A DNA stretch of 64,000 nucleotides from assembly GCA_017617995.1 (NCBI GenBank), contig JAFZVE010000012.1:1-64000 (forward strand), written 5' to 3'. This document shows, piece after piece, positions 4,771 through 29,907 of this stretch (within the stretch, counting starts at the first letter, position 1; every line of letters begins with the position of its first letter). Made by a program: the position numbers and the translations under genes. This stretch comes from Clostridiales bacterium. GTDB taxonomy: Bacteria; Bacillota; Clostridia; Saccharofermentanales; Saccharofermentanaceae. Below the pieces are notes generated by a model. The model was not told where the DNA came from, ran no database searches, and saw only the letters and a program-made list of their open reading frames with translations.

Positions 4771-4799
4771 TTGACTTGGAGTGGACGAATCGATATAAT
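4771..4799 (+). promoter_or_regulatory. Sigma-70 type promoter of the marR-ABC operon
   Basis: TTGACT (4771-4776) and a consensus TATAAT (4794-4799) are separated by exactly 17 bases. The -10 box is overlapped by the first MarR-type palindrome, which fits repression by steric block. Confidence 0.85.
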
Positions 4800-4840
4800 T
4801 GTTAGCATCCTAACAATTCTATTGTTAGCTCCCTAACAAT
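4797..4840. promoter_or_regulatory. Two MarR-type operator palindromes
   Basis: Palindrome 1 has 9-bp arms AATTGTTAG and CTAACAATT (4797-4805, 4810-4818). Palindrome 2 has 8-bp arms ATTGTTAG and CTAACAAT (4821-4828, 4833-4840). The centres are 23 bp apart, so the sites lie on nearly the same helix face. TTGTTAG-N4-CTAACAA matches the usual form of MarR-family operators. Site 1 overlaps the -10 box and site 2 covers the likely transcription start, so autoregulation is the simple reading. Confidence 0.85.
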
Positions 4841-4917
4841 TATATTGTTCGGGCGATTTTTTACGTGCGAACCGGGGCGGAGGATCCGGCGCAGTGTAAG
4901 AAAGGGAAGGGGATTTC

Positions 4918-27168: not shown

Positions 27169-27259
27169 TCGGGCCGGGAAGTGTTTCTGACTCGGACGTG
27201 TCATGAGACGTGATATAATGAGATTGATTTTGGAAGAACTGGAAAAGGCGGAAAAAGAT

Positions 27260-27784
27260 ATGCAGTACGAATACGCGAACGGAATAGGTCAGGACAGTCA
27301 TCGTTTCATGCAGCCATGTGAGGCGCAGCTTCGGACCGCGGACAAGTGGCCGAAGAAATTGATCCTGGCGGGCGTAGAGTTCCCGGATGAGACACCGCTG
27401 GTAGCAAACAGTGACGGTGATGTGGTGCTGCACGCGCTGACCAACGCAATCTCCGGAGTGACGGGAATCAACATCCTCGGCACCATTGCGGATCAGATGT
27501 GCCGGCAGGGGATCACCGACAGTTCCGCCTATCTGGCCAAGGCCATGTCTTTTGCGACGGAACAGGGCTGGGAACTGCGGCATATTTCCGTCAGTATCGA
27601 GGCGAAGCGCCCGAAGTTTACTCCCATGATCGGGCCCATGAAGGTCCGCCTCGGCGAACTTACCGGTCTCGATCCGCAGCGTATCGGGATCACCGCTACT
27701 TCCGGCGAACAGCTGACTCGCTTCGGAGAAGGCGAGGGCATCATGGTATTCTGCAGCGTGACGATGCGCCGCGAAGAGATTTGA
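27260..27784 (+). CDS. ispF: Divergent 2-C-methyl-D-erythritol 2,4-cyclodiphosphate synthase (IspF-like)
   Basis: A 174-residue IspF homologue. The metal ligands are present: Asp and His in 'GQDSHRF', and His in 'NSDGDVVLHAL'. The 'GEGEGI' end loop with its Thr/Ser-Glu pair is also seen ('ATSGEQL'). It departs from the family at two conserved positions: His of 'AHSDGD' is Asn, and the 'GDIG' Asp is Thr ('LGTIADQM'). I prefer the ATG at 27260; earlier in-frame ATGs at 27203 and 27218 lack ribosome sites. ispD lies 1.3 kb downstream on the opposite strand, so the MEP pathway is likely used. Confidence 0.78.
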   Translation: MQYEYANGIGQDSHRFMQPCEAQLRTADKWPKKLILAGVEFPDETPLVANSDGDVVLHALTNAISGVTGINILGTIADQMCRQGITDSSAYLAKAMSFATEQGWELRHISVSIEAKRPKFTPMIGPMKVRLGELTGLDPQRIGITATSGEQLTRFGEGEGIMVFCSVTMRREEI

Positions 27785-27820: not shown

Positions 27821-28639
27821 TTAGTACCGGGCATTTCTTGTCAGGCTGTAAGACTGCGCCACGACGAGGCCAAGGAGCTTTCCATACAAAGAATCAAGAT
27901 TGAAGAACCCTTCTCCGAATTCTGTGGTATAGATGATGTCGATGCCGTTTCGTATGCTGGCTTTCTCGTACGCTTCCATTTTCTCGAGGTTGTCGGAGCG
28001 GTAACTTCGATCGTCCATTCTTCCGAGGTGCTCGATGAAGAAGAACCTGTCAATCTCAGGACAATAAACAGCAAAATCCGGCCATCGTCTCTTTCCATCT
28101 ACTGTGATTATTACTTCGTATTTATACTCCAGTTTCAGTTCTTCGAGTAACTGCGCTATTAGTAACTCCGATTTGGAACGGAACAGATGGCGTCCATGTG
28201 CATAACCATTTGTTATGGTTTTGTCTTCTACTTCTTTGAGAGAGAGCCATCTTTCATACGAGTACCCCGATGGTGTCGATTGGGAAGCAAAATCCAAGGC
28301 GATTGAAGAGGCTGTGTTATGAAACCCGGATCTTCGGCTAGAAAGCCCATCCAGGCATGTCAACCTTTCTGCTTTTAAGGATTCCAAGGATTCTTTTAAG
28401 ATGACACACTTTTGTGCTACGGGAAAGAGCTTGCTCCACTCAGATGAGGCTCTGGAGATTTCTGACCATTTCTTCTTTCCGTTTGATACAACACGAAAAC
28501 GAATGACGTCTTCATACTTGCCGTTTCGTTTGTGTTTGCCGAAAGAGATATCCGGCATGCTAAGCAACTGTGTCTCGATGGCAGCGATAGTGTGGTCACA
28601 TAGGTCCAGACCTGTTCGGATGATTTGAGTTGAAAACAT
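27821..28639 (-). CDS. Solitary PD-(D/E)XK nuclease-like protein
   Basis: A 272-residue protein whose C-terminal half has the endonuclease-like pattern 'FRSKSELLIAQLLEEL' (Glu158), 'RWPDFAVY' (Asp188) and 'FIEHLGRMDD' (Glu203), as in PD-(D/E)XK domains found in helicase-linked or lone proteins. The N-terminal 120 residues are Lys/Ser-rich with no motif I recognise. AAGGAGGC precedes the ATG at 28639. Base composition is visibly richer in A/T than its neighbours, and upstream is a cluster of related hairpins, so horizontal acquisition is plausible. No methylase or restriction partner is nearby. Confidence 0.6.
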   Translation of the reverse strand: MFSTQIIRTGLDLCDHTIAAIETQLLSMPDISFGKHKRNGKYEDVIRFRVVSNGKKKWSEISRASSEWSKLFPVAQKCVILKESLESLKAERLTCLDGLSSRRSGFHNTASSIALDFASQSTPSGYSYERWLSLKEVEDKTITNGYAHGRHLFRSKSELLIAQLLEELKLEYKYEVIITVDGKRRWPDFAVYCPEIDRFFFIEHLGRMDDRSYRSDNLEKMEAYEKASIRNGIDIIYTTEFGEGFFNLDSLYGKLLGLVVAQSYSLTRNARY

Positions 28640-28784: not shown

Positions 28785-29072
28785 CAGTCAGATATTTGTA
28801 CGAAAAAAGGCTTTTGTCTGACTGAAAAGCAGAAGATGGGGCATGTAGTCTGATAATTGTCTAATGAAGAGGTGGCGATTAGACAAATATCAGACTGAAC
28901 TCTGCCCAGTCTGTTATTCTGTCTAATCAAGGCAGCTCATCTGACAAAAAATCTGACTGATGAATCTTGTCAGTCAAATGGAAGAAGAAAAAGAACGTTT
29001 TGTCTGACTGGAAGCATTTTCAGTCTGATATCTGTCTAATGGAGAGGGGGATATTAGACACATATTAGACTG
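28785..29072. repeat. Cluster of related imperfect hairpin repeats
   Basis: Five palindromic units share the words GTCTGAC/T, GTCTAAT and CAGTC. Unit A pairs 28847-28865 with 28878-28896 (18/19). Unit B pairs 29021-29040 with 29053-29072 (18/20), and A and B are near copies of about 51 bases. Unit C pairs 28907-28928 with 28938-28959 (about 16/22), D 28969-28978 with 28999-29008, and E 28785-28792 with 28817-28824. Downstream of ispD and upstream of the nuclease-like gene, on a low-GC stretch of 440 bases with no convincing ORF. Confidence 0.75.
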
Positions 29073-29082
29073 GGCATACTTT

Positions 29083-29907
29083 TCACTTCCCAGGAGCCTC
29101 AATCTCTCCCTTTTCCTCGCGCCCCTTCAGAATAAACTCCGCCAGCGCGGCGTCCTCCGGCGTCGTGATCTTGATATTGCTGTACGAGCATGAAATCAGG
29201 TGCACCGGGATCCCGAGTGCCTCAGCGAGTGCAGTATCATCGGTCGCGGTGATTCCGGCCTCCCGTGCCCGCGCGGAAACATCCACAAGAACACCATATT
29301 TAAATACCTGCGGGGTCTGCACTTCGTAAAGTAGTGAACGGTCGAGTGTCTGCGCCACGAGCGGAGGCCGCTTGTCTTCAAAAAGCACAGAATCCGATTC
29401 CATTGCCGGTGCGGCGAGCTTGATCGTGTTTTTGCAGGGGGTGGCGGCAACACAGACATCGTAGAACATGCCGCTGGTATAGCAGGCCTGAAGCGTAGGA
29501 AAGTCCACCATACATCTGGCTCCATCGTGGATAAAGACAATGTCGCTGTCTTGCGGAGCGCGATCGAGTAAACTAAGTGCCGCGATGCCGGCGGCTACAG
29601 AATCCTGACGTGTGGCGCCACCCTCGACGACACGTTCGACGTAAGAAATCTCGTAATTCTCGATCAGCGCATGTACGCGATCCATATTGTCCAAACTGGT
29701 GACGATCACGGCGTGAAGCGGAAGATCCAGCTTCTTCCTGAAGTCCTCGAAAGCCAGAAGTGTTCGCGCAAGTACCGGTATACCGCCGATCTTGAAGAAC
29801 TGCTTGCTGTCAGATATATGCATGCGCTGCCCAAGTCCCGCGGCCGGGATAATCACATAAAGGTCGCGAGGTTCCGGGCGAGGAAACTTGATTTTATCAA
29901 ACTGCAT
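29083..29907 (-). CDS. ispD: 2-C-methyl-D-erythritol 4-phosphate cytidylyltransferase
   Basis: A 274-residue enzyme that makes 4-diphosphocytidyl-2-C-methylerythritol in the MEP isoprenoid pathway. The CTP-binding loop 'PAAGLGQRM' is near the N-terminus with 'SKQFFKIGG', and 'FIHDGARC' (about residue 125) and 'TDDTALAEALG' are family motifs. It is longer than the usual 230 residues because of about 20 extra N-terminal residues and a charged tail. It follows radA by 40 bases on the same strand, so they are probably co-transcribed. Confidence 0.93.
   Translation of the reverse strand: MQFDKIKFPRPEPRDLYVIIPAAGLGQRMHISDSKQFFKIGGIPVLARTLLAFEDFRKKLDLPLHAVIVTSLDNMDRVHALIENYEISYVERVVEGGATRQDSVAAGIAALSLLDRAPQDSDIVFIHDGARCMVDFPTLQACYTSGMFYDVCVAATPCKNTIKLAAPAMESDSVLFEDKRPPLVAQTLDRSLLYEVQTPQVFKYGVLVDVSARAREAGITATDDTALAEALGIPVHLISCSYSNIKITTPEDAALAEFILKGREEKGEIEAPGK

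Follow-up and report, generated by a model that had tools for sequence, protein, structure and literature searches.

The DNA analysed here, termed the window, is a stretch of 64,000 nucleotides from a Clostridiales bacterium. At positions 28785-29072 it contains an array of palindromic repeats, which is located between ispD and a gene for a nuclease-like protein. The features of the locus are as follows.

27203..27784, plus strand: ispF, convergent neighbour of the nuclease gene (context only)
27821..28639, minus strand: putative cognate nuclease gene, 272 amino acids, adjoining the array
Residues about 1-100 of the nuclease: N domain, alpha-beta-beta-beta-alpha in a structure model
Residues about 130-260 of the nuclease: predicted restriction-endonuclease-like domain, with R154-S-K-S-E158, D188-F and E203-H-x-G206
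28785..28824, minus strand: degenerate hairpin unit 1 (CAGTCAGA..TCTGACTG); a similar short unit is found in the other clusters of this genome
28847..28897, minus strand: full four-box unit, GTCTGAT-N4-GTCTAAT-N12-ATTAGAC-N4-ATCAGAC
28907..28959, minus strand: degenerate four-box unit, assigned by comparison with the other clusters of this genome
28971..29010, minus strand: degenerate short unit, assigned on the same basis
29021..29072, minus strand: full four-box unit
29083..29907, minus strand: ispD, upstream neighbour (context only)

The first-pass annotation of this DNA described five related imperfect hairpins, two of them nearly identical 51-base units, and that description stands. The region holds five imperfect palindromes, consisting of two full units of 51 nt (28847-28897 and 29022-29072, 84% identical) and three weaker relatives. 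One arm of a full unit is formed by two direct copies of a 7-mer (GTCTGAT / GTCTAAT), 11 bp apart. The opposite arm has inverted copies of both 7-mers, and the arms are separated by a constant 12-nt centre, which gives four boxes per unit.

At the RNA level, the minus strand of 28785-29072 is predicted to fold at -95 kcal/mol, compared with a mean of -57.7 for 100 shuffled sequences (z = -8.3; 0 of 100 shuffles match it). Folding of the same strand as DNA gives a z of -7.5 relative to shuffles. An Rfam search with the window array produced no match to any RNA family. Covariation in the stems of the array units is no better than that with shuffled partners (86 of 500 shuffles reach the observed value), and mispairing falls at the variable box positions of the stems. 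In a close relative, G019, the array spacers that separate the boxes show systematic non-complementarity. A regulatory array, a structured RNA and a MITE-like family had been offered as candidate readings by the annotation. The structured RNA is disfavoured because stem covariation is absent, while the intergenic family is borne out by clusters that are found away from the nuclease gene and by MITE-like copies in one relative. The conserved feature of the array seems to be its recurring box, not a fold of the RNA, and we infer that the unit is a four-box site in double-stranded DNA.

The nuclease and its two domains

Searches of Pfam, NCBIfam and PDB sequences with the window nuclease assigned it to no family. 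Across 55 homologues, the RSKSE, DF and EHxG motifs are invariant or nearly so, as are residues E158, D188 and E203; E-H-x-G stands where E-x-K is usual. A full-length AlphaFold model, built from two sequences, is weak overall (pLDDT 67.5) and of moderate confidence in the nuclease domain, and a model of residues 1-100 alone has a pLDDT of 88.6. A structure search with the nuclease domain gave TnsA as the best match (Z 9.1), with the homing endonuclease I-Bth0305I at Z 7.0 and archaeal Holliday-junction resolvases at Z 5-6. As modelled, the domain has the PD-(D/E)XK, or restriction-endonuclease-like, fold, and the likeness to TnsA of Tn7 and to I-Bth0305I lies in this predicted fold. In their own systems, TnsA works at transposon ends together with TnsB and I-Bth0305I serves in intron homing. 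The fold search with the N domain returned noise-level matches only (Z ≤ 7.2), and no known DNA-binding fold was found.

Sequence comparison indicates that the N domain of the family is fast-evolving. Between the window's genome (G000) and G019, which are the two closest species, the nuclease is 62% identical, with 48% identity in the N domain and 81% in the C domain; for the neighbouring genes mrp, ispF and radA the corresponding identity is 94-95%. The stand-alone nuclease family is found mainly in the class of the window's organism, where its genes are numerous, with several copies per genome. No match to the stand-alone protein was found in the phage or plasmid collections searched. In 16 of 16 family members, the nuclease domain has a match at the C-terminal end of PDC-S68, a group of candidate defence proteins in PADLOC (E down to 4e-27). 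The two domains are homologous, but the PDC-S68 profiles are about 1200 amino acids in length, whereas the protein described here is a stand-alone one of 272 amino acids with its own N domain and array. Viral contigs (L182-L189) encode large PDC-S68-like proteins that combine a helicase-like ATPase part with this nuclease domain, located C-terminally, and these are without arrays.

Arrays beside nuclease genes and elsewhere in the genomes

Same-type copies of the array occupy intergenic regions elsewhere in the window's genome. Three further intergenic clusters, at C34:72366, C34:81370 and C8:189242, have the same composite of full and degenerate units. None of these is near the window nuclease gene; the genes beside them are unrelated, and orientation to these genes varies. 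The genome has five paralogous nuclease genes besides the window copy. All six family nucleases have an adjoining array, each of a different sequence, and searches with the paralogue arrays revealed same-type clusters elsewhere for most paralogues.

When 59 relatives were searched at the DNA level for the window array, matches came from the window's genome only, because the box sequence turns over too fast; the approach that works in relatives is inspection of the flanks of homologous nuclease genes. Nearly all full-length homologues in the genus have adjoining tandem palindromes. The array is upstream of the gene in the window's clade and directly after the stop codon in other clades. Box sequences differ between nuclease clades, and comparison of the clades shows that array sequence follows the nuclease lineage.

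By array scores devised for this analysis, and in genomes that are mostly incomplete assemblies, repeat arrays are found beside at least 45 of 55 family genes, compared with 12 of 322 control windows (p about 2e-21). A four-box score of at least 17 is reached by 22 of 110 nuclease flanks and by 3 of 370 control windows, all three of which are known dispersed arrays. A score of at least 16 is reached by 28 of 78 nuclease-adjacent segments, and among the remaining intergenic segments by 1 of 72 (p = 1e-8). Of 880 windows in 400 kb of G019, a single one scores at least 17, and it is itself a nuclease-adjacent array. Initial palindrome and four-box scoring overlooked several arrays that inspection by eye shows clearly. 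Among distant homologues from other families of the class, repeats are present in the flanks of 15 of 23.

A link between repeat and nuclease had seemed unusual to the first-pass annotation, which considered that units widespread elsewhere, or a nuclease gene without an array in close relatives, would speak against it. The link holds, as seen in the clade-specific array types and in the joint relocation of gene and array described below. Copies are indeed present elsewhere, but they share the type of the array beside the nuclease, which is what a dispersed family served by a single dedicated gene would be expected to show. Family genes scored as having no array are mostly contig-end cases, sub-threshold arrays or distant relatives, so that they do not clearly amount to array-less genes in close relatives. 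In G015, eight clusters of a CATTGAC-type repeat are present, and a matching nuclease was not found in this 80%-complete genome. These arrays may be orphans, or the nuclease gene may belong to the 20% that the assembly lacks.

In G019, about 21 clusters of a single array type are present, with 1-6 units each. At least seven copies lie within MITE-like elements whose terminal inverted repeats (TIR) are imperfect. Perfect 8-bp target duplications (TSD) at the fixed expected position are found in 4 of 7 elements, compared with 0 of 42 cross-pairs. These ends and duplications show that some array copies in G019 have transposed as TIR/TSD-bounded units. They point to a transposase acting in trans as the probable mover, and the nuclease therefore need not be what moves them; an IS transposase with ends like GGCTCTGTC..AGTGTTGAT could be such a mover. 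The G019 copies beside the nuclease, and those at the three further sites that G019 and G000 have in common, lack the MITE-like ends, and neither terminal inverted repeats nor target duplications were found at the window array. No MITE ends lacking an array turned up in the 400 kb of G019 or at the other loci inspected. At G019 loci L077, L078, L080, L088, L097, L098 and L099, the arrays are bounded by GGCTCTGTC..TTAGTGTTGATCTTAG and ..ATCAACACTTAAGTGTGACATAACC and form a MITE-like unit that has 8-bp target duplications.

Coupling of gene and array and its interpretation

In G000 and G019, the nuclease gene and its array are located between ispF and ispD, with methyltransferase and mrp genes close by. 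In G002, G006 and G011, gene and array are between the methyltransferase and mrp genes, with ispF and ispD close by. The alignment of orthologous loci that had been proposed at the outset thus has gene and array coming and going as a pair (two species at ispF/ispD, three at methyltransferase/mrp), and this gene order shows that they relocate together. A clean empty site at G019:C13 is not definable relative to G000, as about 60 bp differ.

The array type is common to 18 of 18 nuclease pairs with an N-domain identity of at least 0.6 and to about 1% of pairs below 0.3 (Mantel test, 0 of 1000 permutations); this correlation is partly simple relatedness and is inflated by neighbouring DNA that close genes share. 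Stronger sequence evidence for coupling comes from orthologous sites and from a prediction. All four clusters of G000 are matched in G019 by a cluster at the orthologous site, and there the array has the G019 type. At these four sites the arrays of the two species differ in sequence, and in each species they match the nuclease of that species. In G002, a third array type, TTTAGTCCCAC..GTGGGACTAAA, was first noticed at the syntenic scfB-decarboxylase site. The prediction that followed from it was confirmed, with a G002 nuclease that has about seven such units directly upstream.

These properties suggest that the nuclease and its array form a single fast-evolving system of two parts, which would resemble REP/RAYT in its working and differ in its enzyme; the probability of this is put at roughly 0.6. 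The findings strongly suggest that the repeats are recognised by the nuclease. In the proposed mechanism, the N domain would read the 7-bp boxes in double-stranded DNA, where the two of each arm lie one helical turn apart, and cutting at or near the array would fall to the TnsA-like nuclease domain. Repair of the break from another array copy would make arrays more uniform, enlarge them and relocate them, and such repair-driven rewriting would force a joint change of array and recognition domain. By analogy with REP/RAYT, the system is most likely selfish or domesticated. Perhaps it represents an undescribed class, with a stand-alone restriction-endonuclease-like enzyme, an N domain of rapidly changing specificity and four-box arrays that are rewritten genome-wide in step by cutting and copy-repair. 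This more detailed proposal is tentative, at somewhat less than even odds.

Other readings are to be weighed against the two-part system. It is unlikely that the array is an autoregulatory operator, in which binding of the protein to the boxes controls expression of its own gene, with the other clusters as a small regulon and with cutting incidental or absent. A spacing of one turn between direct boxes does recall protein-binding sites, and the arrays are upstream of the gene in the window's clade. The array is directly 3' of the stop codon in other clades, however, the genes at the other clusters are unrelated and variably oriented, and the active-site-like residues are nearly invariant in the 55 homologues. 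An anti-phage defence nuclease, with arrays that serve as decoy, sensor or control sites, would fit with numerous, fast-evolving family genes and with the PDC-S68 match in 16 of 16 members, but it is quite improbable. PDC-S68 proteins are large helicase fusions of another architecture, a defence-gene context is absent from the window, and the stand-alone protein is absent from the phage and plasmid collections searched.

Very little weight is given to ordinary MITE or intergenic repeats that accumulate by chance near the nuclease and are not recognised by it. Adjacency recurs for paralogues with unrelated arrays, gene and array shift as a pair, the syntenic G002 prediction came true, and the nuclease-site copies have no inverted repeats, even though at least seven G019 copies have terminal inverted repeats and four have perfect 8-bp target duplications. 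Tandem short repeats that adjoin a nuclease gene, and that have strong predicted RNA folding, also bring to mind type III toxin-antitoxin pairs such as ToxIN, where ToxN is an RNase and the repeats are RNA (PMC8860590). A pair of this kind, with transcribed repeats that neutralise a toxic nuclease, is scarcely credible here: arrays are 3' of the gene in many clades, dispersed copies are found far from any nuclease gene, compensatory base-pair changes are absent, the G019 spacers are non-complementary, and the modelled fold is of a DNA-cutting type, not that of a ToxN-type RNase.

Relation to other bacterial repeat systems

In REP/RAYT, a gene is located beside its cognate palindromes, copies of these are dispersed intergenically, each gene has its own repeat type, and gene and repeat show rapid apparent coevolution (PMC2817692, PMC3116915). 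In the system described here the gene is also beside palindromes and the same palindromes are dispersed in intergenic DNA, with a separate repeat type per gene and, as judged from sequence divergence, rapid joint evolution of the two. However, RAYT (TnpA_REP) is a Y1 (HUH) transposase of the IS200/IS605 type, whereas the present enzyme has a non-homologous restriction-endonuclease-like fold. REPs are inverted, with a GTAG/GTGG head, on both sides of the gene; the present arrays have no head and are mostly one-sided, and their units are four-box arrays. The Y1 transposase (PF01797) is absent from G000, G019, G002 and G013 and present in 5 of 14 control genomes. The window system works like REP/RAYT but is not a member; it is placed outside because its enzyme is not a Y1 transposase and none is found in the four genomes.

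CGTC-tagged REPs are reported from Proteobacteria, Chlorobi, Bacteroidetes, Spirochaetes and Thermotogae, and a dedicated enzyme is not known for them (PMC3733652). They resemble the present repeats as short dispersed palindromes with no adjoining Y1 transposase, but differ in having the tag and no dedicated enzyme, whereas the present repeats have no tag and a dedicated gene. A description of such a nuclease-repeat pair was not found in searches of the openly available journal literature.

Until now, REP/RAYT has been the recognised case in which a bacterial gene has its own dispersed palindromes. The same genomic habit in a non-homologous enzyme, where RAYT is not found, would show that this lifestyle arose more than once. 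With so many natural N domain-box pairings, the specificity change of a compact DNA-reading domain becomes directly testable, as does the way in which a genome rewrites all target sites in step. In addition, an unnamed multi-copy nuclease family is given a function to look for.

Other repeat-like elements were observed in the same genomes. A long conserved intergenic hairpin, AAGAATACATCTCTC..GCGAGTTTTGC..GCAAACTGTTTGA..GAGAGATGTATTCTT, is present at L164 (C8:102.8k, G000) and L076 (C13:16.2k, G019), and the stretch left of the array in L081 is related to it. This hairpin is a candidate terminator or a candidate for another repeat family. In the window, positions 4798-4849 contain 2.3 copies of a 23-bp unit with a short palindrome (ATTGTTAGCACCCTAACAATTAT).
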